Shown here: one piece after another, positions 2,522 to 18,216 of the stretch
How the letters are laid out: each line of letters starts with the position of its first letter
How positions within the stretch are numbered: position 1 is the stretch's first letter
Assembly: GCA_025358085.1 (NCBI GenBank)
Contig: JANYKT010000102.1
Location: 1 to 64,000, forward strand
Reading direction: 5' to 3'
DNA from: Deltaproteobacteria bacterium
GTDB lineage: Bacteria > Myxococcota > Myxococcia > Myxococcales > 40CM-4-68-19
DNA: 64,000 bases
Made by a program: the position numbers and the translations under genes
The notes under the pieces: generated by a model
Databases searched by the model: none
What the model was told of the DNA's origin: nothing
The model's input: the letters and a program-made list of their open reading frames with translations, nothing else

Positions 2522-3135
2522 TGCGCGAGGAATCGTCGCAGCAGCGCTTCACCGTCACGGGCGCTCTTTTCAGGGTGGTGCTGCACGCCGAAGAGCGTCC
2601 CTCGCTGGACCAGCGCGGCGATGGGAACGCTGCCGTGGTGGACGACGGCCCGGACGATCTCGGCCGGCGCCTCGCAGCGGTAGGAGTTGGCGAAATAGGC
2701 CCAGCCGGCGAGCGGCTCCGGAAGCAGCGGTGAAGGCGCGGTTCTCTCCAGCTTCTGCCAGCCGATGTGTGGCACCTGCACGCTCGCCGGCAGCCGCGTC
2801 ACCCGGCCAGGGAGAAAACCGAGCCCGGGTCGCGTGCCGTCCTCGTCGCCCTCTTCGAAAAGGATCTGCATGCCGAGGCAGATGCCCAGCACCGGGACGC
2901 TGCGCGACAGCGCCTGGGCCAGCGCCTCGCGAAAGCGCGCCGCCCGCTCCATTCCGAGGCCGAAGGCGGCGACTCCCGGCAGCACGATGCGCCGCGCGGT
3001 CGCGAGCTCCGCGGGATCGCTCGTCAGCTCAGGCTCGCCACCGGCGCGCCTCAGCGCCTGCAGCACCGAGCCCAGGTTGCCGAGCCCGAGGTCGATCACG
3101 CTGGTCCGCGCAGCGGTGAGACCGGCCGTGATCAC
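2518..3135 (-). CDS. hisH: Imidazole glycerol phosphate synthase, glutaminase subunit
   Basis: Class I glutamine amidotransferase that feeds ammonia to HisF. The nucleophile Cys is in GICLGMQILFE and the His/Glu pair in GVQHHPEKS, so the catalytic triad is complete. The N-terminal IDLGLGNLGSV and the 205-residue length are typical. It overlaps hisB upstream and hisA downstream by 4 bases each. Confidence 0.97.
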   Translation of the reverse strand: MITAGLTAARTSVIDLGLGNLGSVLQALRRAGGEPELTSDPAELATARRIVLPGVAAFGLGMERAARFREALAQALSRSVPVLGICLGMQILFEEGDEDGTRPGLGFLPGRVTRLPASVQVPHIGWQKLERTAPSPLLPEPLAGWAYFANSYRCEAPAEIVRAVVHHGSVPIAALVQRGTLFGVQHHPEKSARDGEALLRRFLAQ

Positions 3136-3725
3136 AGCACGCCTTTGGTGCTGGGGATGCCGGTGATGCGCGGGTCGCGCAAAGCTGCCTGCCGCAGCGC
3201 TCGAGCGAACGACTTGAAGACCGCCTCGGCGGCGTGATGAAAGTCGCGGCCGGTCAAAAGATCGATATGAATGTTGCAGCGCGCGTTGTCGGCGATGGCT
3301 TTGAAGAAGCCCTCGAGGACGCTCAGGTCCATCGCGCTGCGCGGGCCCTGGCCTTGCTCTACGGCGACGTTCCAGTGCAGGAAGCTGCGGCCCGAGAGGT
3401 CGACCACACTGCGCGCCAGCGCCTCGTCGAGCGGGAAATAGAAGTGGCCCGCGCGCGCGATGCCCTTGCGGTCGCCGAGCGCTTGGTCAATGGCGGTGCC
3501 AAGAGCGATGCCGGTGTCTTCGACGGTGTGATGCTGGTCAATGTGCAGGTCACCCTTGCAGTGGATCTTCGCGTCGAGCGCGCCGTGCTTGCAGAGCGTC
3601 TCGAGCATGTGATCGAAGAAGGGGATACCGGTCGAGACGTCCGCCTGTCCGGTGCCGTCGAGGTCCAGAGTGATCTCGAGCTGGGTTTCCTTGGTTGCGC
3701 GTTCGATTTTGCCGGTGCGGTTCAT
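3132..3725 (-). CDS. hisB: Imidazoleglycerol-phosphate dehydratase
   Basis: Dehydrates imidazole glycerol phosphate to imidazole acetol phosphate. Paired His-rich metal motifs are visible: DHMLETLCKH with DLHIDQHHTVED, then the second set NIHIDLLTGRDFHHAAEAVFK. At 197 residues it is the monofunctional form and lacks the N-terminal HAD histidinol-phosphatase domain of the E. coli enzyme. The operon therefore needs a separate phosphatase, which the adjacent HAD gene could supply. Confidence 0.97.
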   Translation of the reverse strand: MNRTGKIERATKETQLEITLDLDGTGQADVSTGIPFFDHMLETLCKHGALDAKIHCKGDLHIDQHHTVEDTGIALGTAIDQALGDRKGIARAGHFYFPLDEALARSVVDLSGRSFLHWNVAVEQGQGPRSAMDLSVLEGFFKAIADNARCNIHIDLLTGRDFHHAAEAVFKSFARALRQAALRDPRITGIPSTKGVL

Positions 3726-4576
3726 GACTTCTCTCCCAACAATTGGCCGAGTACGCGCGAGGTGTCCCCGGGGGCCGCGATGTGAGCGTAGATGATCGGT
3801 GTTGCGCCGCGCGCCTGCGCCGCCCGCGCCGCGGTCTGGTCATCGGCCGTATCGCCGATGAAGAGGACTTGTGCGCCTGGGGGCGCGCCCTTGAGCAGCG
3901 TCTGCGTCAGCCAGATCAGGCCCGCCGGGTCGGGCTTGCGCGGCCGGCCATCGGCGACCCAGCTGAGCGCTTCCGGAATACCGAGGCCAGTGCGCTCGAG
4001 CGCCAGCTTTGCTTCGCCCGGATTGCGGCCAGTGAAGAGCGCCAGCGGGAACCTTTCTGCGCACTGTTGCAACAGTGTTGCATCGGCGAGGAGCGTTTCG
4101 CGCTGCCAGTAGCCTTCGCCGGTCCAGTCGAAGCCGAAGAGTTGCCGGCAGCGATCGCCGCCGTACAGCTCATTGCAGGTGCGCGTGATTGCCGGGGCGT
4201 CGAGGGCTGCGTGCACTTCCTGGCTGAAGGCGCGGCGATAGAGGCCCTCGACGCCTTCGCCGTCCGCGCTCCCGAGAAAGTGCGTCAGCGAAGGGGCCGC
4301 GCCGAGTGCGCGCAGGTAAAGGAGGAGGGCGATGCCCCGCGCCATCTCCCAGTCGTCGTTGAAGCCTCCCGCGGCCTTGAACGCAGCAACTTCGAGCGCG
4401 CGATTGAACGGCACCGCGCGTGCTTGGTCCTCACCAACGAGGCTGGCGATGGCCCGGCGCGCGGCCTCCTCCGCGACGGCGTGGTAGCTCGCGGTCGCGT
4501 CCAGCAGCACGCCATCGATGTCGAGGATGACAGCGCATACGGCGGTCAGATCCGGGAACGAAAGTCCGGCGGTCAC
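3722..4576 (-). CDS. HAD-superfamily phosphatase inside the his operon, candidate histidinol-phosphatase
   Basis: HAD subfamily IA hydrolase of 284 residues. Motif I is ILDIDGVLLD (nucleophile Asp19, acid/base Asp21), motif II is LFTGRNPGEA, the motif III Lys is in GRPRKPDP, and motif IV is FIGDTADD. It overlaps hisC upstream and hisB downstream by 4 bases each. The operon has every other his step, hisB lacks a phosphatase domain, and no PHP-type or inositol-monophosphatase-type HisN lies in the window. The natural inference is dephosphorylation of L-histidinol phosphate. Sequence alone does not prove the substrate. Confidence 0.7.
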   Translation of the reverse strand: MTAGLSFPDLTAVCAVILDIDGVLLDATASYHAVAEEAARRAIASLVGEDQARAVPFNRALEVAAFKAAGGFNDDWEMARGIALLLYLRALGAAPSLTHFLGSADGEGVEGLYRRAFSQEVHAALDAPAITRTCNELYGGDRCRQLFGFDWTGEGYWQRETLLADATLLQQCAERFPLALFTGRNPGEAKLALERTGLGIPEALSWVADGRPRKPDPAGLIWLTQTLLKGAPPGAQVLFIGDTADDQTAARAAQARGATPIIYAHIAAPGDTSRVLGQLLGEKS

Positions 4577-5643
4577 GTTTCGGCCCGCAGCGCGGCGAGG
4601 AAGGCGTCGTTGGCCGCAGGCGCGCCGATGCTGACCCGCAAGGCTCGCGAGAGGTCGGGCGCGGTCGAGACGTTCCGAATCAGCACGCCGTGCTTGAAGA
4701 GCGCCGCATGCAGCTCGGTCGGCGGCCGCTTTTCCTGCTCGAAGAGGAGAAAGTTCGCGCCGCTCGGATGCACGGTCATCCCCAGATCCGTGAGCCCGCG
4801 CGCGACCCGCTCGCGCTCGCGCTGCACCAGTCCCGCGCGCTCGGTGACGAGGTCCGGCCGCGCAATCAGCTCGCGCGCCACCAGACAGGTCACCGCGCTC
4901 AGGTTGTAGGGCAGCTGGACTTTGCGCAGCTCGGCGCAGAGCCTGGAGTCGGCCAGCATGCAGCCGCAGCGCAGCGCCGCCGCTGCCAGCGCCTTGGAGA
5001 AAGTGCGGAACAACACCAGCCGCGGATTGCGCGCGAGCAGCGGCGCGAAGTCCTGGCGGCTGAAATCGCGATAGGCCTCGTCCACGCCCACCAGACAGTC
5101 GGTGCCGTCGAGTAGCAGGCGCAGGTCTTCGGTCGCAAGCGTGGTCCCGGTCGGGTTGTTGGGCGAGCCGATCAGCACCAGCTTCGCGCCGCGCGCCGCT
5201 TGCACGAGCGCAGGGATATCGAAGTGGAACTCAGCTCCACGGCGCAGCGGGACCTCGCGCAAGTCCGCGCCCAGGGCTCTCGCCTGCAGCGCGTAGAGCG
5301 AGAAGGACGGCTGCGCGATCACCACGGCGTCCCCCGGAGAGAGGCAGGAGAACAGCAACAACTGGAGCAACTCGTTGGACCCGTTGCCGACCAGCACGCT
5401 CGCCGCGCCCAGGCCGTAGGCGCGCGCGAGGTCCTGCGCCAGCGCGGCGCCGTCGGCGATGGGGTACTTGGACCAGTCGGTCGCGAGCACGCGTTCCGTC
5501 AGCTCGCGCTTGAGCTCCTCGGGCAGGTCGTACGGGCTCTCATTGAGGTGCAGCGGCACCGGGGCGGGATCGCGCGGCGGGCCGTAGGCTGCGAGCGGGC
5601 GGATGGTTTCGCGGACAAAGCTCTCGGGCGTGCGCGGGCTCAT
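4573..5643 (-). CDS. hisC: Histidinol-phosphate aminotransferase
   Basis: Class I/II PLP aminotransferase converting imidazole acetol phosphate and glutamate to histidinol phosphate. The N-terminus LHLNESPYDLPEEL is the HisC signature. VGNGSNELLQLL binds the cofactor phosphate, SPNNPTGTT and VDEAYRDF are the PLP ring contacts, and FSKALAAAALRCG holds the Schiff-base lysine. At 356 residues it has normal length. It lies between hisD and the HAD phosphatase with 4-base overlaps on both sides. Confidence 0.96.
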   Translation of the reverse strand: MSPRTPESFVRETIRPLAAYGPPRDPAPVPLHLNESPYDLPEELKRELTERVLATDWSKYPIADGAALAQDLARAYGLGAASVLVGNGSNELLQLLLFSCLSPGDAVVIAQPSFSLYALQARALGADLREVPLRRGAEFHFDIPALVQAARGAKLVLIGSPNNPTGTTLATEDLRLLLDGTDCLVGVDEAYRDFSRQDFAPLLARNPRLVLFRTFSKALAAAALRCGCMLADSRLCAELRKVQLPYNLSAVTCLVARELIARPDLVTERAGLVQRERERVARGLTDLGMTVHPSGANFLLFEQEKRPPTELHAALFKHGVLIRNVSTAPDLSRALRVSIGAPAANDAFLAALRAET

Positions 5644-6932
5644 TGGTCCTGACTTCCTGAAGCGCCCGGCGTTGCGCTGTGTGCGACGCGGAATTCGATG
5701 GCGCGTGCGTGCGCGTGCAGCCCCTCGGCGTGCGCCAGCGCGGCGATGGCCCGGCCGTCTTTCGCGAGCTGCTCCTTGCCATATTCGATGACGTTCTGCC
5801 GGCGCACGAAGTCCGACGCGCTCAGCGGAGAAGCAAAGCGCGCCGTGCCCGAGGTCGGCAGCGTGTGATTCGGGCCCGCGAGATAGTCGCCGACCGGCAC
5901 CGGCGCGTGCGGGCCGACGAACACCGCCGCCGCGCGCGGGACTTTTGCAACCGCGGCAGCAGCGTCTTCGAGCAGCAATTCCAGGTGTTCGGGCGCGAGC
6001 TCATTCGCGAGCGCGAGCGCCTCTTCGAGCGTTCGCGTGACGATGGCTGCGCCGCGCGCCTGCAGAGCCTCGGCCGCGACCGCGCCGATCTTTTCCTGCC
6101 CCAGCGCCGCGACCACCGCCCGCGCGAGCGCCGCATCGGGCGTAATCAAGATAGCCAGCGCGAGCGGGTCGTGTTCGGCCTGCGCGATCAGATCGACCGC
6201 GACCAGCGCGGGGTCGGCGCTGTGGTCAGCGACGATGACCACTTCGGTCGGACCCGCCAGGGAGTCGATGCGCACCTCTCCCGAGAGCTGCCGCTTCGCT
6301 TCGGTCACGTAAGCGTTGCCGGGTCCGACGATGACGTCGACGCGCGGGATGCGTTCGGTGCCGAGGGCGAGAGCGGCCACCGCCTGCGCGCCGCCAGCCC
6401 GCAGGATCCGGGTAGCGCCGGCGATGCGCGCGGCCGCCGCGACCTCGGGCAGGATCGATCCGTCTCTTCGCGGAGGCGTGACGACGATGACGTCCTGCAC
6501 CCCCGCGAGCCGCGCAACCGCGGCGGTCATGATCACCGTCGAGGGATACGCCGCGCGGCCGCCCGGGACGTAGCAGCCCGCGCGATCGAGCGGCAGGGTC
6601 AGGCAGCGCACCGTGCCGCCCGCATCGAGCGACTGCGAATAGCTGGGCGGAACCTGCGGCGCGTGAAAAGCGCGCACCCGTGCGGCAGCGACCTCAAGTG
6701 CGGCGCGGACTTCCGCGGGACAGGCGGCGGCGAGTGCGTCCCACGACGAGTCGTCGAGGAAGGGATCGGTCAGGGTGGGCCCGTCGAAGCGTGCGGTCAG
6801 CTCGCGCACGGCCGCATCGCCGCGCGCCCGCACGTCGGCAATGATAGCGGCGACAGCGGGCGCGACCGTTGCAGGCGTGACGCCGGCTGCGCGCAAGGAC
6901 CCGGCTTCCCGGGCGTCGAGAATTCGGATCAA
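5640..6932 (-). CDS. hisD: Histidinol dehydrogenase
   Basis: NAD-dependent, zinc enzyme that oxidises histidinol twice to histidine. YVPGGRAAYPSTV, GAQAVAALALGTERIP, VGPGNAYVTEAKR, DSLAGPTEV, AQAEHDP and ANELAPEHLEL are signature segments with the zinc and catalytic residues. The start chosen is a TTG at 6932 that overlaps the hisG stop as TTGA. It gives 430 residues, the family norm, and GGAGG lies 4 bases upstream. The same frame stays open far upstream into hisG, but that part is a shadow. Confidence 0.95.
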   Translation of the reverse strand: MIRILDAREAGSLRAAGVTPATVAPAVAAIIADVRARGDAAVRELTARFDGPTLTDPFLDDSSWDALAAACPAEVRAALEVAAARVRAFHAPQVPPSYSQSLDAGGTVRCLTLPLDRAGCYVPGGRAAYPSTVIMTAAVARLAGVQDVIVVTPPRRDGSILPEVAAAARIAGATRILRAGGAQAVAALALGTERIPRVDVIVGPGNAYVTEAKRQLSGEVRIDSLAGPTEVVIVADHSADPALVAVDLIAQAEHDPLALAILITPDAALARAVVAALGQEKIGAVAAEALQARGAAIVTRTLEEALALANELAPEHLELLLEDAAAAVAKVPRAAAVFVGPHAPVPVGDYLAGPNHTLPTSGTARFASPLSASDFVRRQNVIEYGKEQLAKDGRAIAALAHAEGLHAHARAIEFRVAHSATPGASGSQDQ

Positions 6933-7567
6933 GGAGCCTCCAGCTTGTCGAGGAGCGGCAACAGCGTCGTCAGCTTCAGCCGGTAAGAAGCGCGATTGAC
7001 CACCAGACGCGCGGTGATCTGGTGCAAATCCTCGACGACGATGAGGCCGTTCTCCTCCAGCGTCCGCCCGCTCTCCACCAGATCGACGATAGCGTCGGCG
7101 AGTCCCGAGACCGCCGCCAGCTCGACCGAGCCCGACAGCTTGACCAGGTCGACCGGCACTCCCTTGCGGGCAAAAAACTGGGCCGCCAGTCGCGGATACT
7201 TGCTCGCGATCCGCAACGATCTCCCCAGCTCCCCTGCGTCGGCGAGCGCGTCGCGCGCGATGCGGCTGTCTCGTGGTGCGGCCAGGCTGAGGCGGCAACG
7301 GCCAAAGCCGAAGTCGATGGGGCTCAATAGATCTGCCGCGGATTCCAGCACCTGATCGAGCCCGCAGACGCCGATATCGGCTGCCCCGCGCTCGACATAA
7401 AGCGGGACGTCCCCATCCTTGAGCACCAGGAAGCGCGCGCTCACGCCGGCCGGAACGATGAGCTTGCGCGAGCTGCCCGGCTCTTCATCGGGCACGATTC
7501 CCGCCGCGGCGAAGCGCTCGAGCGCGGGCTTCTGCAGCCGGCCCTTGGGCAAGGCGATGGTCAACAT
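6929..7567 (-). CDS. hisG: ATP phosphoribosyltransferase, short-form catalytic subunit
   Basis: Commits ATP and PRPP to histidine synthesis. At 212 residues it is the short HisG form, lacking the C-terminal histidine-binding domain, and so needs HisZ for activity and feedback inhibition. ALPKGRL at the start, VERGAADIGVCG, IASKYPRLAAQFF and SGSVELA.SGLADAIVDLV are conserved substrate-binding segments. The obligate partner hisZ overlaps it by 7 bases upstream, and hisD follows through the TTGA overlap. Confidence 0.97.
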   Translation of the reverse strand: MLTIALPKGRLQKPALERFAAAGIVPDEEPGSSRKLIVPAGVSARFLVLKDGDVPLYVERGAADIGVCGLDQVLESAADLLSPIDFGFGRCRLSLAAPRDSRIARDALADAGELGRSLRIASKYPRLAAQFFARKGVPVDLVKLSGSVELAAVSGLADAIVDLVESGRTLEENGLIVVEDLHQITARLVVNRASYRLKLTTLLPLLDKLEAP

Positions 7568-8526
7568 ACGGCCGCCAGCGGGACCAACGCGTCGAGCTCC
7601 AGCGAAAAGCCGACCGCCGGTCGCGGGTCGCCAAAGCGGCCGAGCAGGGTGTCGTAGCGCCCGCCGCCGCCGACGGGCCGCGGTGCACCCGCCGCGTAGA
7701 GATTGAAGACCAGGCCGGTGTAGTAGCCGAGCCCTCGGACCTCGCCGAGATCGACTTCAAGCTCGGCGCCAAGACTCTTCGCCTGGGCGAGCGTGGCGGC
7801 GAGCCTCTCTACCGCTTGCAGCGCGTCGGCGGACGGGGCGAGCTGGGCGGCCTTCTGCAACAGCGACTGCGCGTCCTCCTGCGAGCGTGGCGGCCGCGCC
7901 AGCAGCAGCAAGGCGTCGCGCGCTTTGCCCGGCGCGACTTCCTTCTCGCAGAGGCCTCTCAACGTCGGCAGGTCCTTGCGGTCGATGGCGTCGCTCAACG
8001 CCCTGGTGAGCCGCTCGCCCGCCTTGGATGCTGAAATGAGCGCCGCGAAGTAGCCGACCGTGCCCACCGAGACGCGCGTGTCGGCCAAGCCGAGCGCATG
8101 CAGGGATCGCGTGGCAAGCGAGAGGATCTCCGCGTCGGCTTCGGGCCCCGCGGCCCCGACCAGCTCGCAGCCGGCCTGCAGCCGCTCCCGCGGAATGCCG
8201 CTTTCGGCCGCGCCCTCACGCACCACGCTGCCGCGATAGTACAGCCGCAGCGGCGAGACGCCGGCGAGCCGGGTGGCCGCGATGCGCGCGACTTGCGCGG
8301 TGAAGTCGGCCCTCAGGGCCAGCAGATGTCCGCTGCGGTCGAGCGCGCGGAAGGCCTCGGGGCCGAAGACATCGGCGCTCTCGATGGACGGCGGGATGAC
8401 CTCCCCGAAGCCCGCGGCTTCGAACAGCTGCGCCAGCGTGGCCTCGCAACGGCGCAGCCGGCGCGCCGCCTCGAAGAGGAGATCCTGCGTGCCCTGGGGG
8501 GGCGCTTTAGTCGAGGGGAGGAGCAT
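7561..8526 (-). CDS. hisZ: ATP phosphoribosyltransferase regulatory subunit
   Basis: Paralogue of histidyl-tRNA synthetase that lacks aminoacylation and forms the hetero-octamer with short HisG, providing allosteric control. PPSIESADVFGPEAFRALD and LALRADFTAQVAR are the class II synthetase-like motifs, and GLGYYTGLVFNLYA plus GGGGRYDTLL form the histidine pocket. At 321 residues it fits the family. It is the first gene of the his operon; the start is an ATG at 8526 with no obvious ribosome-binding site. No leader peptide rich in His codons was seen in the 146 bases upstream. Confidence 0.95.
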   Translation of the reverse strand: MLLPSTKAPPQGTQDLLFEAARRLRRCEATLAQLFEAAGFGEVIPPSIESADVFGPEAFRALDRSGHLLALRADFTAQVARIAATRLAGVSPLRLYYRGSVVREGAAESGIPRERLQAGCELVGAAGPEADAEILSLATRSLHALGLADTRVSVGTVGYFAALISASKAGERLTRALSDAIDRKDLPTLRGLCEKEVAPGKARDALLLLARPPRSQEDAQSLLQKAAQLAPSADALQAVERLAATLAQAKSLGAELEVDLGEVRGLGYYTGLVFNLYAAGAPRPVGGGGRYDTLLGRFGDPRPAVGFSLELDALVPLAAVC

Positions 8527-8672: not shown

Positions 8673-9737
8673 GTGCGTACGCTTTACCAGCTTGCCCGCC
8701 CGCTGCTCTTTTCCCTCGAGGCAGAGCGCGCGCACTCGCTCGCGGGCGCCTGGCTGCGAGTCTCCGCGCGGCTGCGCCCGCGACCTGTGCTGCCGCCGTG
8801 GCCGTCTTTGCGCCAGACTGTTTTCGGGCTCGACTTTCCCTCTCCGGTGGGTCTCGCCGCGGGGATGGATAAAGGCGAGGTCGTCGCTCCCGCCTGGTTC
8901 GGACTGGGCTTCGGCTTTGTCGAGATCGGGTCCATCACCCCGCGCCCGCAGCCCGGCAATCCGCGGCCGCGGCTCTTTCGTTTGATTGAGCAGCGCGCGG
9001 TGATCAATCGAATGGGCTTCAATAACGCCGGTGCCGACGCGGTGGCTTCCCGGTTGCGCGCGCTACCCCGTCAGCCGGGGCCCATCGGTATCAATCTGGG
9101 CAAGAACAAGGACACTCCCAATGAGCGGGCCGCGGAGGACTACGTCTCGGCCTTTCGCACGCTCGCGCCCCTCGCCGATTACGCGGCCATCAATGTATCC
9201 AGTCCCAACACGCCGGGCTTGCGCGCGCTGCAGCAGGATCTCGGCGCACTTGTTCGCGCCGTCGCTGTCGAGCGCGACGCGCTGCCGCGCCGGATCCCAT
9301 TGCTGGTCAAGTTGTCTCCCGACGAGACCTCCATTGAAAGGATCGCCGCGGCTGCCGTCGAAGCCGGAGCCGACGGAATCATTGCGACCAATACGACTCT
9401 CGAGCGTTCGGACGTTGCTGGTCACCCGCGCGCGGGCGAGGCGGGCGGGCTCTCGGGCGCGCCGCTTCGCCTGGCCGCGCAGCGGGCCTGCGCCCGGCTG
9501 CATCTGGCATTGGGCCCTCGCGTGCCATTGATTGGAGTGGGCGGAATCTTTACCGCCGAGGATGCTTATGCACGCATTCGTGCCGGAGCTTCTTTGATTC
9601 AGCTCTATACAGCACTGATCTATGAAGGCCCCGGCGTTGCCCGCGCCGTCGCGTCCGGCCTCGCGCGCCTGCTGGAGCGCGACCAACTCACGCTCTCGCA
9701 GGCCATTGGACTCGACGCAAAGGAACTTGCCTTATGA
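8673..9737 (+). CDS. pyrD: Dihydroorotate dehydrogenase (quinone), class 2
   Basis: Oxidises dihydroorotate to orotate in pyrimidine synthesis and passes electrons to the quinone pool at the inner membrane. The N-terminal amphipathic segment (PLLFSLEAERAHSLAG), which docks class 2 enzymes on the membrane, is present. GLAAGMDKG, GFVEIGSITP, NRMGFNN, INLGKNKDTP and GVGGIFTAEDAYARI bind FMN and substrate, and the catalytic Ser lies in NVSSPNTPGLR. GTG start at 8673. Its stop overlaps the next start as ATGA. It diverges from hisZ across 146 bases in which no clear promoter was seen. Confidence 0.96.
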   Translation: MRTLYQLARPLLFSLEAERAHSLAGAWLRVSARLRPRPVLPPWPSLRQTVFGLDFPSPVGLAAGMDKGEVVAPAWFGLGFGFVEIGSITPRPQPGNPRPRLFRLIEQRAVINRMGFNNAGADAVASRLRALPRQPGPIGINLGKNKDTPNERAAEDYVSAFRTLAPLADYAAINVSSPNTPGLRALQQDLGALVRAVAVERDALPRRIPLLVKLSPDETSIERIAAAAVEAGADGIIATNTTLERSDVAGHPRAGEAGGLSGAPLRLAAQRACARLHLALGPRVPLIGVGGIFTAEDAYARIRAGASLIQLYTALIYEGPGVARAVASGLARLLERDQLTLSQAIGLDAKELAL

Positions 9738-9997
9738 GCCGCCATCTTTTCACCGTCGAAGACTCTTCCCCTCTCGCCGGCCAGGGCCTCGTCCTGCTCC
9801 CCGGTGTTCCTCCCGATATCCAGTTGGGCGGCGCGACCTCCGTGGAACTCAAGCTCCCCAACGGCGTCTGCGTGGTCGCCCGCGTCGCCGGCATGGCCCA
9901 TTTTGGCCGCAAGCCCGGCGCGCCAACTCCGCTCCTCATCGCCCGCAGCCCGCTCGACCTCGAAGTCCCCCGCGGCACCGAAGTCTGGACGGCCTGA
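9734..9997 (+). CDS. Small EF-Tu-domain-II-like protein coupled to pyrD
   Basis: An 87-residue protein overlapping pyrD by ATGA, so probably translated with it. The spacing of conserved residues (HLFTVED, GQGLVLLPGV, VELKLPNG, RVAGMAHF, then PLLIA and VPRGTEVW) resembles the second beta-barrel domain of translational GTPases, but no GTPase domain is attached. Such a barrel usually binds RNA or protein. The function is unknown and the fold is an inference by eye. No signal peptide or transmembrane segment. Confidence 0.7.
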   Translation: MSRHLFTVEDSSPLAGQGLVLLPGVPPDIQLGGATSVELKLPNGVCVVARVAGMAHFGRKPGAPTPLLIARSPLDLEVPRGTEVWTA

Positions 9998-10029
9998 GAC
10001 CAAAAAGTCTTGCTACGCGATGCGCCAAG

Positions 10030-10983
10030 TCAGGCGGGTTCGCCAGCGGGGATCGTCCCCGCGGCGGCGACAGGATTGGGCGCGCCGAGGGGGCCGAAGG
10101 CGGCGCGGAAGGCGAGCGATACCGTGATGGCGATGGCGAGTCCGGCGAAGAGGTCGAGTACATAGTGGTGATTGAGATAGACGGCGCTGAAGCAGACCAA
10201 CAACCAATACGCCAGCGCGACGATACGGAAGCGGCGGAGCTGGATTGAATAGACCAGCGCAAGGAATGGGTAGACGATGTGTAGTGAGGGAATGGCGCCG
10301 AAGACGTCGGCGCTCTTGCTGTAGAAGCCTTGCATGATGGGCATTCCCACCAGTTGATCAAAGCGAACGGTGCCGGCGGGGGAAGCGCGAACACTCAAAT
10401 CGAGGAGAAAGCCATGTTCAGCCACATACCAGGGCGGGGCGGCGGGATAGATGTAATAGAAACTGAAACCGACGAAGTTCGCGATGACGAAGACCCAGGC
10501 GAAGCGCTGGGCGCGGCGTTCCATGCCGTGGAATTGCATCCAGATGGCGAGCAGGATGGACTCGCCGACGAAGAAGAATGGCGTGTAGGAGAGGCCGCAG
10601 ACGAAGTCGAGCACGTTCGCGGTGTGCTTCTGCAGCCATTCATTCGGGGTCTGGCCGGCAATCCCGAAGAACCGCAAGTCGAAGTCGTACGGTTCGTGGA
10701 TGTGAATCAAAGGTGATCGGATGGCGTCGGCGTACCAGCGCATTGAATCGTAGACGCTGACCCAGAGGATGAAGGGCAGGCCAACCCGCGCGAGTTTGCG
10801 GGAACCGTCGCTGAAGAAGCCAAGGCCGAATGCCAGTCCGGCGGCGAGCAGGTGCTCGGGCCGAAGGTCGTGCGCGGCGAAGCGGGCGAGGAAAAGATAG
10901 ATCAGGCAAAGCAACGGCAACTCGCGCCGGTAGACGACGGGCGCGCGGCGATAGGCAGCGACCCGCTCAGATAGAGACAACAT
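10030..10983 (-). CDS. PAP2 / AUR1-like integral membrane phosphotransferase
   Basis: A 317-residue protein with about six hydrophobic helices. The lipid-phosphatase core is visible: YPAAPPWYV before a hydrophobic stretch, GAIPSLHIVYPFL with the Ser-His pair, and YLNHHYVLDLFAGL with the second catalytic His and Asp. The PSLH and HHYxxD pattern preceded by P-P-W-Y is that of the PAP2_3 group, which includes fungal inositol-phosphorylceramide synthase Aur1. It could move a phosphoinositol headgroup between lipids or remove a lipid phosphate at the outer face of the inner membrane. The ATG overlaps the stop of the MMPL gene by one base (TGATG); it is the last gene of the four-gene lipid cluster. 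Confidence 0.85.
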   Translation of the reverse strand: MLSLSERVAAYRRAPVVYRRELPLLCLIYLFLARFAAHDLRPEHLLAAGLAFGLGFFSDGSRKLARVGLPFILWVSVYDSMRWYADAIRSPLIHIHEPYDFDLRFFGIAGQTPNEWLQKHTANVLDFVCGLSYTPFFFVGESILLAIWMQFHGMERRAQRFAWVFVIANFVGFSFYYIYPAAPPWYVAEHGFLLDLSVRASPAGTVRFDQLVGMPIMQGFYSKSADVFGAIPSLHIVYPFLALVYSIQLRRFRIVALAYWLLVCFSAVYLNHHYVLDLFAGLAIAITVSLAFRAAFGPLGAPNPVAAAGTIPAGEPA

Positions 10984-13454
10984 CAGGCTCCCTGGTGCTG
11001 CGCGGTGTCCACCAGCACGGGGGCCTTCCGGTCGCGCAGGCTGAGGAGCGCGGGCAGAGCGAAGAGCGCCGCCGAGAGGCAGGTGACTTCGCCGAGTACG
11101 GCAGTGAGGCCGAAGCTCTGGATGGCCTGGTTGTCGGCGGCGATCAGCGTTGCGTAACCGATGATGGTGGTCAGAGAGCAGAGCGCCACCGCCCCGCCCG
11201 AGGTGCCGAGTGCGTCTTCGACGCTTCTCGTCTGCTTGTAGCGCTGGTAGAGATTGACCGCGTAATCGACGCCGATACCGAAGGTGATTGGCAAGACTGC
11301 GAAATTAACGAAGTTGAGCTTGAGAGACAAGAGGCTCATCAAACCGGCCATCCAGAGCATTCCGAGCGTCAACGAGCCGATGACCCAGGCTGCGTCGCGA
11401 AGTGAGCGCAACACCAACAAAGTCAGCAGGGACACCGCGAGAAAACTCAAGAGTGCCGTCAGGCCACCCTCGCTGGTGATGGCGCCGACGATATCAGTCG
11501 TGAGCACAATCTGGCCGGCGACACGCGCGCGCTTGTCGACCCTCCAGGAGGCCTCGCGCACGGCCCGCGAATGGGCGATTTGCGCCAGGCCATTGGCCGA
11601 ATCGGTCGACAAAGTCGGGAATACCAGGACGAGTCTTCCGCTGTGGCCGTCTTTTTCGAAGAACGGCTCGGTGAGGCGCGCGGGAATATCGGCAATGCCG
11701 ACCGGCGTCAGCTTGGTGCTCTGGCGCAGGCGGGCGATTTCGGGCGGCATCGCCGAGGGCTTCTGATCGAGAATGGCGAAGATTTCGCTCAAGAGCGCAA
11801 GCTTGCGCGGCTGATCAACCGGGAGGAGTTTCTGCAGACTCGTGACCGACTCGATGGTGCCCTGGGGGCCCTCGAACTCGCGTTCCTTGTCGACCGACGC
11901 AGCCACGGCTTCCGCGCTCTCGGCCGAGTCGGTGAGCACCACGGTGGGCGTCTGGTAGCTCTGCAAGACTGCGTCGACGTGCTTGTCCCAGTAGCCGGCG
12001 CCGCTGTCGATTCCCGAGCGGCTCCCGAGCTTGCGAAAGTCATATTGAATGGGATCTTCGAGGAATCGCACCATGGCAAAGCCCGAGCCGACGGCGAGCA
12101 CCGCGGTCAAGGCCACGGCCCACGCCGGCCGCCGGACGACCAGCGCTGCGAAGCGCCCGGCGATCCAGCCAACCGCCGCGGGGTGTTTGCGGGTGGAGAG
12201 TTCGTGGAAGGGCCAGAGTCGCTCGACCAGCACGATGAGCGCAGGCATCAACGAATAGGTGGAAAGCCAGCAGAACAGCATTCCAAAGAAGCCCATGAAG
12301 GCGAATTGATTGAACCCGCGGAAGCTGACGAATCCCAGGGACCCATAGCTCGCGGCCGCTGCGGCGCTGGCGACGAAGGTGCCTGTCCAGGTCCCGCGCA
12401 ATGCGAGCGGAAGAGCGTCGGGCAGCGCCTTGCCGCGGCGCCGCTCCTCCAGATAGCGCGCCAACAAGATGATACCGGCGTTGATTCCATTGCCAACGAT
12501 GATGCTGCCGAGAAAAGCGGTATTGGGATTCAGATAGTGAATGACCGCGCGCGAGAGAGCGAAAGTCAGCGAGACTCCGGTAAAAAGCGGCAATACCAGC
12601 AAGGGCAGGGCGCGCAGGGTCTGGTAGTACAGCACCAGCGCGAGGCCGACCGCCAGCAGCACCAGCACGCCTGTGATCTGCAGGTCCCTGACCAATGCCT
12701 CCTGCGCCTCGATGACGCTGCGGATCTCCCCGCCGTAGCCGACCTTGATATGGCCGCCATACTTCGATGGATCGACCTCCCGCACCACCTGCTCGACCGC
12801 GCGGAAGATGATTTGATCGTCGTCGAGGCTGACCGCGGCGCCTGGGGGAAAGACGGAAACCACCAACGTGTGGCCGCCTTCGCCGGCGAGGTAGCCGTCC
12901 GGGTATCGGTCGATCCGCGCAAAGGCCCCGCGCAGCCGAGCGAGCGCGGCATCGGTGCTTGCGGAACTCTTTGCCTGCCCGGTGGCGGCGTGGTCGTCGT
13001 CGAGATCCACCAGGAGCGGATTGACGCGGGCGACCTGCGCTTTCAATGAGTCCCGGATTTGAAGCAGGTCCTTTGTGTCGGCGAAGAGCGCACCGTGCGA
13101 CTCGAAGAAGGCGCGCTCGGCGTCCACGCGCCAGAAGATGCGAGCCACCGTAGAGGGCGGGAGCTGCTGGAGCTTCGCCACCAGCGCGTCGACGAAGCGT
13201 TCGCCGGATTTGAGGTCATCGGTGCGCACCACGATGGCAAGCGACGAGAAGCCGCCAACGCGCTTCTCCAGCTCTTCGAGTCCGACCGCGGCCGGCGCGC
13301 CGTGCGGCAGGAGTTCGCGCAGATCGGTGCGCAGGTCTCCGTAGAGCCGCGCTGTCGCGGGCACGCAGAGGCCGAACGCGAGCAGTCCCGCGATGGCGAT
13401 GGTTCCCGGCCTGCGCATTGAAAGCAAGGTCCAGCGATTCCAGAACGCGTTCAC
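10983..13454 (-). CDS. MMPL/RND-family lipid exporter
   Basis: An 823-residue RND-superfamily protein with the classic duplicated plan. There is one N-terminal transmembrane helix, a large periplasmic loop, a block of helices around residues 255-430, a second periplasmic loop and a final helix block. GVDYAVNLYQRYKQTRS and VGNGINAGIILLARYLEERR are the two copies of the RND motif after helix 4 of each half. It resembles hopanoid-type (HpnN) and MmpL lipid transporters more than drug pumps, and no periplasmic adaptor gene lies beside it. It sits between the aminotransferase and the PAP2 gene, so export of the lipid made by this cluster is a reasonable inference. Confidence 0.85.
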   Translation of the reverse strand: MNAFWNRWTLLSMRRPGTIAIAGLLAFGLCVPATARLYGDLRTDLRELLPHGAPAAVGLEELEKRVGGFSSLAIVVRTDDLKSGERFVDALVAKLQQLPPSTVARIFWRVDAERAFFESHGALFADTKDLLQIRDSLKAQVARVNPLLVDLDDDHAATGQAKSSASTDAALARLRGAFARIDRYPDGYLAGEGGHTLVVSVFPPGAAVSLDDDQIIFRAVEQVVREVDPSKYGGHIKVGYGGEIRSVIEAQEALVRDLQITGVLVLLAVGLALVLYYQTLRALPLLVLPLFTGVSLTFALSRAVIHYLNPNTAFLGSIIVGNGINAGIILLARYLEERRRGKALPDALPLALRGTWTGTFVASAAAAASYGSLGFVSFRGFNQFAFMGFFGMLFCWLSTYSLMPALIVLVERLWPFHELSTRKHPAAVGWIAGRFAALVVRRPAWAVALTAVLAVGSGFAMVRFLEDPIQYDFRKLGSRSGIDSGAGYWDKHVDAVLQSYQTPTVVLTDSAESAEAVAASVDKEREFEGPQGTIESVTSLQKLLPVDQPRKLALLSEIFAILDQKPSAMPPEIARLRQSTKLTPVGIADIPARLTEPFFEKDGHSGRLVLVFPTLSTDSANGLAQIAHSRAVREASWRVDKRARVAGQIVLTTDIVGAITSEGGLTALLSFLAVSLLTLLVLRSLRDAAWVIGSLTLGMLWMAGLMSLLSLKLNFVNFAVLPITFGIGVDYAVNLYQRYKQTRSVEDALGTSGGAVALCSLTTIIGYATLIAADNQAIQSFGLTAVLGEVTCLSAALFALPALLSLRDRKAPVLVDTAQHQGA

Positions 13455-13463
13455 TAGGGGCCT

Positions 13464-14804
13464 TTAGGCCGCGCCGTGGCGGCGGGCGACGGCGGCGATG
13501 GATTCGCGCAGGAGCGAGAGGCCCGACAGCGCCGTGTCGCGATCGATGGTGAGCGCCGGCTGCAAGCGGATGGCGTGCGTGTAGCTCATGGCCAAAAGAC
13601 CGCGTTGCAAGCCGTCCTGGAAGATCTCGTCGCAGATCTTCTTTGCCAGCGGCTCCTTGGTCTTCCGGTCGGAGACCAGCTCGACCGCGAGGAAGAGTCC
13701 TTCGCCGCGGACGTCACCGACCCAGCGCAGCTGATCCGGCCAGGTGCGCAGCTCGGCCAGCATCGCGGCCCCCACCTCGAGCACGTTCTGCAGGACGTTC
13801 TCGTTTTGCAGGATGCGCAGGGACGCCAGCGCCGCCGTGGCGGCCAGCGGATTGCCGCCATAGGAGGACGAGGATCCGCTTGGGTTGGACCACGGTTTCG
13901 CCTGCGCAATTTCTTTGCGCGCGACCACGCCGCTGATAGGGAAGCCGCCGCCGAAGGCCTTGCCGAGCGTGATGATGTCCGGCGTGACGTCACTGCGCTC
14001 GCTCGCAAACCAGCGGCCGGTGCGGCCGAAGCCGGTAATCATCTCGTCGGCGATGAAGAGCGCGCCGTGGTCGTGAGCCATCTCGGCCATGGCCTTCATG
14101 AAGTCGGGCGGGGGAATGACGTTGCCGGCGGTCCCTTGCAGCGGCTCCATGATCACCGCCGCGAGGGAGCCCGTGGTGGCATGCTTGAGCTGGTCGCGCG
14201 CAAGGTCTGCGCAGGCGAGGCCGCAATGGGTCGGCTCAAGCTTGAGCGGGCACCGGTAGCAGTTGGCGAACGGCAGGACATGGCCGCCCGCGGGGAGCGG
14301 GCCATAGGACTTCGCATTGCCGGCGCCGTTGACCGCGAGGGTACCGAGCGTCTTGCCGTGGAAGCCTCCCCAGAAACCCGCGACCTCATGGTGGCCGGTT
14401 GCATTCTTGGCCAGGCGGAGAGCGCTTTCCACCGCTTCGGCGCCGCTCGAGTAGAGCTGGACGCGGTCGACGCCCTTCGGCGTGAGCCTGGCCACCTCAT
14501 TGATCAACTCCGCGCGGGGCGCGCTGGTGAAGGAGCCGACGGAAACCTTATCGAGCTGCGCGTGCATGGCCTTGCGATACTCAGGGTGCGAATGGCCCAG
14601 GGCGTTGACGCCGATGCCGCCAATGAGATCGACGAAGCGGTTGCCGTCGACGTCCTCGATGACGCTGCCTTCCGCGCGCTCCACCGCGATACCGCTCGAG
14701 AGCGCGAAGCCCTGCATCCCGGGCGCAAGGTGCTGTTGCTCGTGGCGCACCAGCGCCTGCGATTTGGGGCCGGGGATGGCGGTCTGGATGTGCGGAGCTT
14801 TCAC
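13464..14804 (-). CDS. Class III PLP-dependent aminotransferase
   Basis: Fold-type I aminotransferase of 446 residues in the 4-aminobutyrate/acetylornithine/racemase group. SSGAEAVESALRLAK binds the cofactor phosphate, DEMITGFGRTG holds the ring-contacting Asp, and TLGKAFGGGFP has the Schiff-base Lys282. A four-Cys segment (NCYRCPLKLEPTHCGLACAD, residues 181-200) is seen in some archaeal and bacterial members of this group. GTG start at 14804. The amine acceptor is unknown. Its place between a CDP-alcohol phosphatidyltransferase fusion and a lipid exporter suggests an amino group on a lipid precursor rather than GABA catabolism, but that is inference. Confidence 0.85.
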   Translation of the reverse strand: MKAPHIQTAIPGPKSQALVRHEQQHLAPGMQGFALSSGIAVERAEGSVIEDVDGNRFVDLIGGIGVNALGHSHPEYRKAMHAQLDKVSVGSFTSAPRAELINEVARLTPKGVDRVQLYSSGAEAVESALRLAKNATGHHEVAGFWGGFHGKTLGTLAVNGAGNAKSYGPLPAGGHVLPFANCYRCPLKLEPTHCGLACADLARDQLKHATTGSLAAVIMEPLQGTAGNVIPPPDFMKAMAEMAHDHGALFIADEMITGFGRTGRWFASERSDVTPDIITLGKAFGGGFPISGVVARKEIAQAKPWSNPSGSSSSYGGNPLAATAALASLRILQNENVLQNVLEVGAAMLAELRTWPDQLRWVGDVRGEGLFLAVELVSDRKTKEPLAKKICDEIFQDGLQRGLLAMSYTHAIRLQPALTIDRDTALSGLSLLRESIAAVARRHGAA

Positions 14805-14890
14805 TCTGGAATGACCTCTCTCTGCTGGCTATGATTCCGGACCGCGGGATTCGTCGCGCGGGCACCGTCGAACGCAAAAACTAAAGCTTT

Positions 14891-17263
14891 TTAGAAAGCG
14901 GGCAGGGAGGCAGGCTTGTTCGCATAAGCGAACTCGCTGAGAGCCTGGCCGCTGCGCTCTTCCGTTTTCTGGCCGGGGCGCTCGATCTTCAGCGAGTAGT
15001 GGTCTTCATACGTGTAGGTCATCGGCGCGGCGACGGTGCTGACCAGGAGGCGCGAGAGGGGGCCCATCTCGCTGAGTACGTCCTGCTTGTACAGCAGCCT
15101 TTTCGCGTCGATGCGGGCGGTCAGCGTCTCGCCCTGCGAGCCCCTCGCAACCACCACGATGCCCTGCGGCACGTCGTACTCGAAGTGGCCGCCGACCTCG
15201 TGGCGCGGGCTTTCGAAGGCGAGCTTCACGTCGGTGGAGCGCACCTCGGTGTGGCCGTCTTTGGAAGTATAGAGCCAGCCCTGCGGGGGGAGCCGCGAGC
15301 CCACTGGGGGAAAGAGCACCGCGAGAGCGGCGGTGGTTCCCGCATGGTCGTCGAACGCTTCCATCTTGAACCAGAGCGAGGCGCTCTTGTAAGCCGGCAT
15401 GGTCGAGTAAGACGTGTCGGCGTAGCAAAAGCCTTTCATGCGCTTGGAGCCCTGGGTCACGCTCCACATGGTGCCGTCGAAGCGCGAGCGCAGCGCGAAG
15501 ATGGTCTGGTCGAAGACCGCGTGCCCTCCGGCGTCGAAGACAACCCGGCCGCCGCCCGGACGGACTGCTTGCGTTTCCGGCAGCACTGTTGCGTCCACCA
15601 CCAGCTTCTTGCCGGCGAAATGCACATGGTGGCTGGCATCGGGACCCATGGTAAGGCGCGAGCCGCCCATCTCGATCGCTCCCTCGGGGATGACGCTCCA
15701 CTGGCCCGATTCGAAGGTGTCCGAGTCTTCGGTGCTCTTGCCGTCGGCGCTGACCACCACCGCGCGGACAGCAGCCTTGCCGTGTCCAGCGAGACCAGCG
15801 TTGGAGACGAGGAACTGGACGCGCGCGAATGAGCCGTCCTCGCCGGAGAAGAGAAATGAGTAGCTCTCGGAGTAGTACGCCTCGGGCCGGAGCTTGGGCA
15901 GAAAGCTCGTCTGCGTGACGTTGCCGTCGTCGGGGGCGGCGACACTGAAACCGTGGACCTGCTCGGCGGCGAAGGGGTCACCGTAGGACACGAAGAGGAC
16001 CGCCATGGCTGCGAGACCGGACGCAACGGCACCGAAGATGGCGAGGCCTGGGCGCGGCTTTCCGGTCTGCTCGCTAAAGACGAAGATGCGGTGCAGCGGC
16101 AGGTTCCAGCCCAGCGAGACCACGACCCCGACCAGCGGGGCGGCGGCGAGCGCATTCCAGCGCAGGCCTTCGGTCAAGAGAATGACGCCGACCGTGTTGA
16201 GGAGCAGCGAGGTCAGCGAAATGGCGGCGTAACGCGGCAGCTCCACCCAGAGCGAGTTTTCGCGCGTCTTGAAAGTCCACAGCTTGTTGACGGTAAAGTT
16301 GGTGGCGGCGCCGATCAGCGCGCCCAGCGCTCGCGCGGTGCCGGTGTAGATCCCGATCACCTCCAGCAAGATCGCGAAGGTGCCGTAGTCGATGACGGTG
16401 GCGATGGCCGAGGCGACCCAAGCTCGCTGGAACCACCCCGAAAGCTCCTCCTCGCGAGTGGCTGGCGCCGTCTGGACAGGCAGCGGATCGCGCTTGCGAA
16501 GCTCGGCGTGGATGAAGATGAAGCGCCGCAGCGCCGTCACATTGGCCATGACGGCGATCAGGCCGAGCGCAACCAGTAACAGGTGGAACAGGGGGTGTAA
16601 CGATCCCGGTTCGTACCAGCTGGCGAGCGAAGGTGCGAAGACGCCGGCGATGCCGATGTAGACAGCGCGCTCGCCGCGGTTCATGGAGCCCATCCGGGCG
16701 TCGATGCCGCTGATTTCTCCCTTGGCGCGGGCGTACGAGACGAGCAGGGCGCCGCCCAGGGACAAGAGCGCCATCCAGAAGCCGGGCGGAAAGTCGCGAT
16801 AATAAGCGGCGATACCAGCGAAAGTAGCGACCTCGGCGTAGCGGTCGACCGCGGCATCGAAGAGTTCGCCTGCATCGGACGAGATGCCGCGCGCGCGTGC
16901 CACCATGCCGTCGAGCGCGTCGAGGATTGCGCACACAAGGACGCCGGCCCCGCCCAGTGCTGGCTTGCCCAGCGCAAAAGCGACCGCTCCCGCGAACGCC
17001 GCCAGGAGAGAAGCCACCGTCAACTGATTGGGAGTGATGCTCGTTCTGAGGAGAGCAGCCTCGACGGGGTCGAAGCACCAGTAGGCGAATTCAATGAGCA
17101 CCCGGCTCATGAAGATGCTTCCCGGCTCCTTCTTGGCGCGCGCGGACTCGTACCGCCCATAAAGGCGAACGCGGACGGCATAGCCCACGAGCAGGCAGGC
17201 GAAGGAAGCAGTGATCGGTAGAAGCAGCAGGGTCTCTCCTCTCTCTGCTACGGTCACGCTCAC
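14891..17263 (-). CDS. Fusion of CDP-alcohol phosphatidyltransferase, GtrA-like domain and Svf1-like lipid-binding domain
   Basis: A 790-residue protein in three parts. Residues ~50-250 are a membrane CDP-alcohol phosphatidyltransferase with the full metal motif (Asp115, Asp118-Gly119, Ala122-Arg123, Gly132, Asp136, Asp140). The later MGSMNRGERAVY segment recalls phosphatidylinositol-phosphate synthases. Residues ~280-400 are a GtrA-like four-helix membrane domain with NFTVNKLWTF. After one more hydrophobic helix (~405-426), the last ~360 residues are soluble, beta-rich and probably periplasmic. SFARVQFLVSNAG, SASLWFKMEAF and DVLSEMGPLSRLLVSTV recall Svf1, the yeast ceramide-binding survival factor, and the wider lipocalin-like CrtC/AttH clan. 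GTG start at 17263; a later ATG at 17110 would drop the first helix. It is the first gene of the cluster. Confidence 0.8.
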   Translation of the reverse strand: MSVTVAERGETLLLLPITASFACLLVGYAVRVRLYGRYESARAKKEPGSIFMSRVLIEFAYWCFDPVEAALLRTSITPNQLTVASLLAAFAGAVAFALGKPALGGAGVLVCAILDALDGMVARARGISSDAGELFDAAVDRYAEVATFAGIAAYYRDFPPGFWMALLSLGGALLVSYARAKGEISGIDARMGSMNRGERAVYIGIAGVFAPSLASWYEPGSLHPLFHLLLVALGLIAVMANVTALRRFIFIHAELRKRDPLPVQTAPATREEELSGWFQRAWVASAIATVIDYGTFAILLEVIGIYTGTARALGALIGAATNFTVNKLWTFKTRENSLWVELPRYAAISLTSLLLNTVGVILLTEGLRWNALAAAPLVGVVVSLGWNLPLHRIFVFSEQTGKPRPGLAIFGAVASGLAAMAVLFVSYGDPFAAEQVHGFSVAAPDDGNVTQTSFLPKLRPEAYYSESYSFLFSGEDGSFARVQFLVSNAGLAGHGKAAVRAVVVSADGKSTEDSDTFESGQWSVIPEGAIEMGGSRLTMGPDASHHVHFAGKKLVVDATVLPETQAVRPGGGRVVFDAGGHAVFDQTIFALRSRFDGTMWSVTQGSKRMKGFCYADTSYSTMPAYKSASLWFKMEAFDDHAGTTAALAVLFPPVGSRLPPQGWLYTSKDGHTEVRSTDVKLAFESPRHEVGGHFEYDVPQGIVVVARGSQGETLTARIDAKRLLYKQDVLSEMGPLSRLLVSTVAAPMTYTYEDHYSLKIERPGQKTEERSGQALSEFAYANKPASLPAF

Positions 17264-17391: not shown

Positions 17392-18216
17392 CTACCGGCC
17401 ACCGGCCAGCGGCAACAGAACGATGACCATCGGGAGCCCGACGCCCTGGCTGCCGATGCTGTCTTCGAGCGGCTCTCCGCGCAGCGAGAGCGTTGCTTCC
17501 GGACCGCCGTCCAGGTTGAGCGCCTCGACCGCGCCCAGTTCGTCGGCGAGCCACTTGCCGACCTCGCGCCGCACCGCTGGCCACTGCGAGGCGAACAGCA
17601 GGATGCGGCCGTCGCGCAGCTGCGCAACGGCTGCAGTGCGCGAGGATTCGGCGCAGTAATGGACGCCGCTACAGGTCGCGGTGCTGCCGTGGACCAGCGC
17701 GGGGAAGCTCTTGAGCGCTTCAGCCCAGTCCGCGGCGTGGAAGTCGGCCGGAGCGAGGATCTGCGGCCCCGCTTTCACCGTGCTAGCCGGCGGCGACGAC
17801 TTCGATGTTGCGGCGCTGGCCGCGAAGAACAGCGCATCCTGCCGATGACAGCCAGCGCCGCGCACCTGCCGTCCGGCGGAGATCACGTCGCAGGTGGGTC
17901 GGACCTCGGCGCCGGGTGGGCCGTCGGTCGAATAAAAGGAGCCGTTCGCGATGGCGAGAGCGTTCGGGTAGCGGGCGCGCCAGGCAGCGAGGGTCGGCCG
18001 CGAAGGGTCGTACCGAACCGCGAACGTCGCGCGCTGCGGGTCCGCGAGTACGACCTTGGCGGCCCAGTTGGCGTCACCGCCGAGGTCCGCCACGGTTGCC
18101 GTCACCACGCCGGGCGCCAGCTCCTTCCACGGCGGACCGAGCGACCTCGCCACCGCATCAGTCGGCAGGGGAGGCTGCGCGACGGCGAGGGCGAAGCCGA
18201 GCAGCCAGAGCGTCAT
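17392..18216 (-). CDS. Secreted phosphodiester glycosidase (NAGPA-like domain)
   Basis: A 274-residue protein with a short signal peptide (TLWLLGFALAVAQP) and a phosphodiester glycosidase domain, the family of the mammalian uncovering enzyme that removes GlcNAc from GlcNAc-1-phospho-mannose. IANGSFYST and ALNLDGGPEATLSL are the two conserved turns (usual forms NGGFF and LDGGGSSTL). The start is chosen at 18216 because its ATG overlaps the ppk1 stop as TGATG. The same frame stays open upstream, but there it only shadows ppk1. The substrate is unknown; a periplasmic or cell-surface sugar phosphodiester is likely. Confidence 0.85.
   Translation of the reverse strand: MTLWLLGFALAVAQPPLPTDAVARSLGPPWKELAPGVVTATVADLGGDANWAAKVVLADPQRATFAVRYDPSRPTLAAWRARYPNALAIANGSFYSTDGPPGAEVRPTCDVISAGRQVRGAGCHRQDALFFAASAATSKSSPPASTVKAGPQILAPADFHAADWAEALKSFPALVHGSTATCSGVHYCAESSRTAAVAQLRDGRILLFASQWPAVRREVGKWLADELGAVEALNLDGGPEATLSLRGEPLEDSIGSQGVGLPMVIVLLPLAGGR

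Follow-up and report, generated by a model that had tools for sequence, protein, structure and literature searches.

We find that the window (the whole 64,000-nucleotide stretch of DNA analysed) encodes on its minus strand a protein of 790 amino acids (aa) that joins a phosphatidylinositol-phosphate-synthase-like (PIPS-like) domain, a GtrA unit and a soluble domain (SVF) of the AttH/CrtC/Svf1 superfamily. We consider it reasonably probable that this protein is a PIPS fused to a GtrA unit and to a periplasmic Svf1-like lipid-binding domain, and that it serves inositol phosphoceramide synthesis. Families of the genome set are labelled f1 to f31, f1 being the family of the window; the window's genome is G000.

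An intact three-part protein

14891..17263, minus strand: fusion protein PIPS-GtrA-SVF, 790 aa (open frame, full-length conservation in relatives)

The minus strand holds a single uninterrupted frame of 790 aa from a GTG at 17263 to the stop codon at 14891, and stop codons interrupt reading on the plus strand over the same locus. The start codon is approximate, as the minus-strand frame stays open as far as 17320. All three parts are matched by Pfam profiles: CDP-OH_P_transf (PF01066) at residues 77-183 (E 9.5e-12; 46 bits vs. a cut-off of 22), GtrA_DPMS_TM (PF04138) at residues 285-396 (E 2e-19; 70.4 bits vs. a gathering score of 26.1) and, in the full protein, Svf1_C (PF17187) at residues 689-779 (E 6.3e-5; 23.3 bits vs. 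a cut-off of 25). Together with the intact frame, these matches bear out the sequence-only reading, which had placed three such parts within one protein and had named their separation in close relatives as the mark of an artefact. A protein search of 60 relatives recovered the fusion at full length in 8 of the 11 same-family genomes, covering three other genera, at 66-76% identity: seven carry it at 68-76%, and the eighth as an 819-aa frame with an insertion, at 66%. In the remaining same-family genomes, it is cut by contig ends (2 of 11) or absent (one fragmented genome). The fusion is thus kept in close relatives, and separate adjacent genes are found only in more distant ones. An assembly or reading-frame artefact could appeal to the separate genes of distant relatives; however, with full-length fusions in eight further f1 genomes and an additional fusion in a different family, we give this explanation next to no credence and rejected it on the conservation of the full-length protein.

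The membrane domains

16490..17158, minus strand: phosphatidylinositol-phosphate-synthase-like domain, residues ~36-258, six membrane helices and a juxtamembrane helix (PF01066, NCBIfam, PDB 6h53)
16844..16921, minus strand: CDP-alcohol phosphatidyltransferase catalytic motif, residues 115-140 (regular-expression match)
16076..16411, minus strand: GtrA/DPMS transmembrane domain, residues 285-396, four helices (PF04138, E 2e-19)
15983..16051, minus strand: extra membrane helix, residues 405-427, leading into the periplasm by the positive-inside rule (topology analysis)

The catalytic motif D115-x2-D118-G119-x2-A122-R123-x8-G132-x3-D136-x3-D140 is matched exactly by a regular expression in the membrane domain, letter for letter as it had been read from the sequence, and, with PF01066 above its cut-off, this motif marks the first domain as a member of the CDP-alcohol phosphatidyltransferase superfamily. 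Its best NCBIfam matches are all phosphatidylinositol-phosphate (PIP) or archaetidylinositol-phosphate synthases, led by archaetidylinositol-phosphate synthase (E 3e-34; 118.5 bits vs. an equivalog cut-off of 180), Bacteroides PIP synthase (E 4e-28; 98.8 vs. 350) and bacterial PIP synthase (E 2e-27; 96.4 vs. 170), all below the cut-offs. The closest solved structures are likewise PIP synthases (PDB 6h53, E 9.5e-16), and alignment with these structures shows that the catalytic residues and the R-x-E-R segment are kept. By these comparisons the domain is PIPS-like, below equivalog level, and would form PIP; the earlier claim of a headgroup-lipid synthase thereby stands on the motif and is narrowed by the NCBIfam and PDB matches.

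Hydropathy and the helices of a low-confidence model give 12 membrane segments (one N-terminal helix, six in the phosphotransferase, four in the GtrA unit and one at residues 405-427), and beyond residue 427 there is no further membrane segment, the Kyte-Doolittle mean never exceeding 0.98. The positive residues of the protein sit in the loops that are cytoplasmic if the phosphotransferase active site is cytoplasmic; because these residues fall in loops that must be cytoplasmic, the C-terminus is predicted to lie in the periplasm, as the sequence-only reading had proposed and in agreement with the signal peptides with which stand-alone SVF relatives begin. Instead of flipping, GtrA-like proteins may serve for anchoring or recruitment. 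Deletion of the GtrA neighbour BT_1524 in Bacteroides left the lipids on TLC unchanged (PMC9246714), a result that, by analogy, argues against an essential flippase role for GtrA.

The C-terminal domain

14894..15982, minus strand: Svf1/CrtC/AttH-like soluble beta domain (SVF), residues 428-790, predicted periplasmic (Pfam, Foldseek, VIA-align, low-confidence model)

Searched alone, SVF reaches the Svf1_C cut-off exactly (E 1.8e-5; 25.0 bits vs. 25), so that the profile search set beforehand as a check returned a match within the Svf1/CrtC clan. Svf1_C is matched by 16 of 26 SVF relatives at E <= 0.1 (best 2.3e-11), and the relatives gathered by iterative search include stand-alone genes that match Svf1_C (E 2.3e-11) and CrtC (E 2.9e-5). 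PF08622, the N-terminal half of Svf1, gave no match in the fusion protein and weak matches in 2 of the 26 relatives (best E 0.015). The resemblance to yeast Svf1 noted from the sequence is seen at the edge of the cut-off for Svf1_C and holds for the superfamily; it fails for PF08622, and of the three segments on which it had been built only DVLSEMGPLSRLLVSTV lies inside the Svf1_C match. Because the N-terminal profile is unmatched, we do not file SVF as a member of Svf1.

Foldseek with a low-confidence model of SVF placed AttH/CrtC/Svf1 superfamily members at all ranks from 1 to 20 (best E 6e-7), namely AttH, Fsa2, Phm7, CghA and crystallised kin, kievitone hydratase and 25-phosphosteroid lyase. 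Re-alignment of the model to 2ich with VIA-align gave Z 12.2 (252 residues aligned, rmsd 7.7); an unrelated barrel scores 9.6 among the same hits. The AlphaFold model, made from a four-sequence input, is too poor for cavity assessment (pLDDT 35.9 and pTM 0.32 for SVF; 38.3 and 0.27 for the whole protein). A profile of the 26 SVF domains found nothing significant among PDB sequences, which leaves Pfam and Foldseek as the basis of the fold link; these independent lines agree that SVF is, by profile and modelled fold, a member of the AttH/CrtC/Svf1 double-lipocalin superfamily.

Across the 26 members, only Y38, G51, G64 and P321 (domain numbering) are invariant; the conserved polar residues are E40 and N62, within Y-x-E and N-x-G motifs. 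His239 and Trp241 are essential in CrtC (PMC4717167) and seem to correspond, by sequence motif only, to GYADHS-x-ST (DHSWG-like). At this position the window family has CYADTSYST, in which the His is replaced, and the Trp is absent in most members. If the motif is matched correctly, loss of both residues favours a binding role over that of a hydratase. In yeast, ceramide is bound between the two lipocalin domains of Svf1, and cells that lose Svf1 have lower levels of complex sphingolipids (review PMC10583516).

Operon and gene arrangements among relatives

13464..14804, minus strand: class III aminotransferase (AT3), operon gene (PF00202, E 1.7e-95)
10983..13454, minus strand: MMPL/HpnN-type RND lipid exporter (Pfam, NCBIfam)
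10030..10983, minus strand: PAP2_3 protein, homologue of phosphoinositol dihydroceramide synthase BT_1522 (IPCS) (NF052609, PF14378)

The fusion gene is followed by AT3, by the MMPL gene, which starts 9 bases past AT3 and shares 1 base with the gene after it, and by the IPCS homologue as the last gene. The only NCBIfam match of the latter is NF052609 (E 2e-53), at 181.8 bits vs. an equivalog cut-off of 480, and it also matches PF14378 (E 4.8e-23); with the score below the cut-off, we call it a homologue only. An AT3 homologue stays with inositol-lipid genes in f2, f3 and f6 relatives too. The fusion is immediately preceded, on its own strand, by an NAGPA-type phosphodiester glycosidase (window 17392-18216) and a polyphosphate kinase, both kept in most of the family and missing from G003.

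Among relatives, the same parts recur in other arrangements. PIPS and GtrA are fused, with an adjacent SVF gene, in f3 and f4, and in f4 the adjacent genes run inositol-phosphate synthase (MIPS), IPCS, PIPS-GtrA, SVF and a PTP-type phosphatase. In the f6 relative L041, four separate genes in a row encode PIPS, GtrA, a HAD phosphatase and SVF, beside IPCS, AT3, MMPL, MlaC, TolC and a serine palmitoyltransferase (SPT) homologue. Another f6 cluster (L039) holds an SPT (NCBIfam E 7e-140), a GNAT and a CerR-like reductase (epimerase); from position and known bacterial sphingolipid genes, the GNAT would be a ceramide synthase and the epimerase a 3-ketosphinganine reductase.

In 193 genomes of the phylum, we identified SVF in 86, strong IPCS matches in 78 and both in 69 (Fisher p 7e-26 for co-occurrence, with relatedness of the genomes ignored). 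Where both occur, the two genes are no more than 10 kb apart in 64 of the 69 genomes, and the median gap is 1.35 kb. Nine genomes have IPCS without SVF and 17 have SVF without IPCS; since some genomes hold one without the other, SVF is not indispensable for IPCS. The 17 include all eight genomes of family f11, and at the f11 loci examined SVF accompanies an NTP transferase, a CDP-alcohol transferase and MMPL, with HAD or MIPS in some. An alternative inositol-lipid route has been proposed for Bacteroides vulgatus and Prevotella (PMC9246714), and, judged by gene content, the f11 set of NTP transferase, CDP-alcohol transferase, HAD and MIPS matches the cluster described there. As it is also present in the f11 route, SVF accompanies inositol-lipid genes through two different chemistries. 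Clusters of this NTP-transferase/CDP-alcohol-transferase type, outside Bacteroidota and with SVF, a Kelch-repeat protein and an MMPL exporter, lie at L059 5226-19000, L115 2639-12915 and L114 7207-15264.

Origin of the fusion

G077, a genome of family f17 from a class other than the window's, encodes a second three-part fusion, of 736 aa, next to genes for IPCS, MIPS and MMPL; this fusion is known from that single assembly. In the SVF tree, G077 groups with stand-alone genes of f3, f4 and f6 (support 100/100) and the window family with f11, and the supported branches force two changes. The PIPS tree places G077 with the two-part proteins of f3 and f4 (95/93); there the window family joins f6 and one gene of f3 with a separate GtrA (100/99). 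Both trees are unrooted, and their best fit suggests that the three-part fusion formed twice independently; one old fusion followed by repeated splits, which unrooted trees also accommodate, is not our preferred explanation.

Other candidate pathway genes in the window's genome

Elsewhere in G000, a MIPS gene is followed by TolC and MlaC genes, and a GNAT homologue is present. Directly after the ceramide-synthase-like GNAT gene lies a metallophosphoesterase gene (L095 7021-9820, minus strand; G000:C88). Next to MIPS, PIPS or SPT-GNAT-CerR genes, MlaC-like and TolC-like genes are found repeatedly (L077, G000:C179, 6859-10937, minus strand; L041 10969-12917; L097 3727-6388), which suggests a dedicated lipid export route.

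In the window's genome we saw no stand-alone SPT, and only a fusion of a polyketide synthase to an alpha-oxoamine synthase domain (PKS-AOS) could fill the role there; for this reason, PKS-AOS may be the window family's route to the sphingoid base. The domain, which is BioF/SPT-related, ends the polyketide synthase at L076 (G000:C3:4100-19420) 9344-15319, minus strand, and a KS-AT-ACP-KR-DH polyketide synthase at L098 (G010:C136) 1084-7935, plus strand; in G010, a CerR-like reductase adjoins it. PKS-AOS is kept at 81-88% across the family.

The f4-type PTP phosphatase is absent from the window's family save for a weak match in one genome, and for this reason HAD, present in all f1 genomes tested and found in G000 on the same contig as the window but outside it (G000:C55:80718-81356), is taken as the candidate PIP phosphatase. 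The PTP type (f4; L037 11996-12586) and the MtnX-like HAD (f6, L041 8938-9612; f1, at the G000 position just given) are unrelated phosphatases that stand in place of the Bacteroides PIP phosphatase BT_1525, and both are candidate non-orthologous PIP phosphatases.

Proposed role and alternative explanations

The active site of PAP2 enzymes is expected at the periplasmic face. In the scheme that we favour, inositol phosphate, with MIPS encoded elsewhere in the genome, and CDP-diacylglycerol would be joined to PIP at the cytoplasmic face by the PIPS-like domain, whose active site is recognised by sequence, and the HAD phosphatase would turn PIP into phosphatidylinositol (PI). GtrA might then move PI to the outer leaflet, or hold it for transfer there, which is the weakest step of the scheme. 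Periplasmic SVF, for which fold and location are supported and the ligand is our proposal, would bind ceramide or a phosphoinositol lipid and present it to the PAP2-type synthase, which would transfer phosphoinositol onto ceramide; MMPL, with MlaC-like and TolC-like partners, may carry the product to the outer membrane. Inositol phosphoceramide is proposed as the product because the neighbours are an IPCS homologue and MMPL and, in relatives, MIPS, SPT, the ceramide-synthase-like GNAT and the CerR-like reductase. As these neighbours point to inositol phosphoceramide, the Svf1 resemblance gains a concrete meaning. Ceramide phosphoinositol has been reported from Myxococcus xanthus (PMC9246714). 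A bolder version, which we hold only tentatively and think rather doubtful, is that one polypeptide combines cytoplasmic headgroup-lipid synthesis, lipid passage through GtrA and a periplasmic Svf1-type ceramide chaperone feeding IPCS, as a ceramide-transfer device assembled at least twice independently.

The end product might instead be a glycerophosphoinositol lipid (PI or PIP) or another polyol phospholipid, in which case the lipid bound by SVF would be PI or diacylglycerol. Every characterised PIPS makes PI-DAG, the score of the PAP2 neighbour falls well under its curated cut-off and the window's genome has no stand-alone SPT among the genes seen; yet that neighbour's sole NCBIfam match is phosphoinositol dihydroceramide synthase, SPT, GNAT and CerR-like genes lie within the cluster of f6 relatives, and the window's genome itself has a GNAT homologue. 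We regard this product as unlikely, and about as readily, or slightly less so, would we accept that SVF is an enzyme like its AttH/CrtC relatives (hydratases, lyases, pericyclases) that modifies a lipid or headgroup in the periplasm. The nearest solved folds are indeed enzymes or putative enzymes (CghA, Fsa2, Phm7, kievitone hydratase and 25-phosphosteroid lyase), but the CrtC His is replaced and the Trp absent in most members, as mapped by motif only, and four residues alone are invariant over 26 members. Very improbable, in our judgement, is a role of GtrA and SVF in a glycolipid or surface polysaccharide, with the PIPS fusion only making an inositol-anchored glycolipid carrier: GtrA proteins generally work with polyprenyl-phosphate sugars, and glycosyltransferases lie near some relatives (L039, L058), whereas the operons of the window and of f4 have no glycosyltransferase and a GtrA protein (BT_1524) is central in the Bacteroides inositol-lipid cluster.

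Inositol phosphoceramide synthesis, the reading that we prefer, bears on how ceramide and PI, products of the cytoplasmic face or its vicinity, reach a PAP2-type synthase with an expected periplasmic active site, and the arrangement suggests a possible way in which bacteria hand over lipids for sphingolipid synthesis. The fusion, apparently assembled twice, ties GtrA and the Svf1-like domain to inositol-lipid synthesis and so bears on the GtrA gene of the Bacteroides cluster. If the proposal is true, Svf1, studied in fungi, gains a bacterial counterpart in the same pathway. A direct test is feasible in Myxococcus xanthus if SVF is a separate gene there, as in f4 genomes.

Comparison with known systems

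We found no report of a PIPS-GtrA fusion or of a bacterial Svf1 in the open-licence literature (subscription journals were outside the scope of the search). As far as our searches reach, the kind of inositol-sphingolipid pathway is known from Bacteroides, and the three-part protein, its Svf1-like partner and the phylum-wide spread are undescribed. The closest gene set is BT_1522-BT_1526 of Bacteroides thetaiotaomicron (PMC9246714), which likewise comprises MIPS, PIPS, a GtrA membrane protein, a phosphatase and phosphoinositol-dihydroceramide synthase. That cluster encodes PIPS and GtrA in separate genes and has no described Svf1-like protein, whereas in the window PIPS, GtrA and SVF form one polypeptide, the operon has an MMPL exporter and AT3, and the candidate phosphatase comes from another family. 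The alternative CDP-inositol cluster of Bacteroides vulgatus and Prevotella (PMC9246714) shares NTP transferase, CDP-alcohol transferase, HAD and MIPS with the f11 relatives, to which these add SVF, the Kelch protein and the MMPL exporter.

Domain by domain, the PIPS-like part has in common with the mycobacterial and Renibacterium PIP synthases (PDB 6h53, 5d92) the catalytic motif, the six-helix CDP-alcohol phosphotransferase core and the R-x-E-R segment, but it is distant in sequence (E 9.5e-16) and the fusion adds an N-terminal helix and the C-terminal GtrA-TM-SVF extension. With the AttH/CrtC/Diels-Alderase lipocalin superfamily (PDB 2ich, 7e5t, 6kbc, 9g2i), SVF shares the fold as judged by Foldseek and VIA-align; it differs in lacking, as mapped by motif, the essential His and Trp of CrtC and in having no carotenoid or polyketide setting. 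Yeast Svf1 (PF08622 and PF17187) resembles SVF in the Svf1_C profile match, the two-lipocalin fold type and the sphingolipid setting; in contrast to cytosolic Svf1, SVF is membrane-tethered and predicted to be periplasmic, leaves the N-terminal profile unmatched and has no Golgi-targeting helix.
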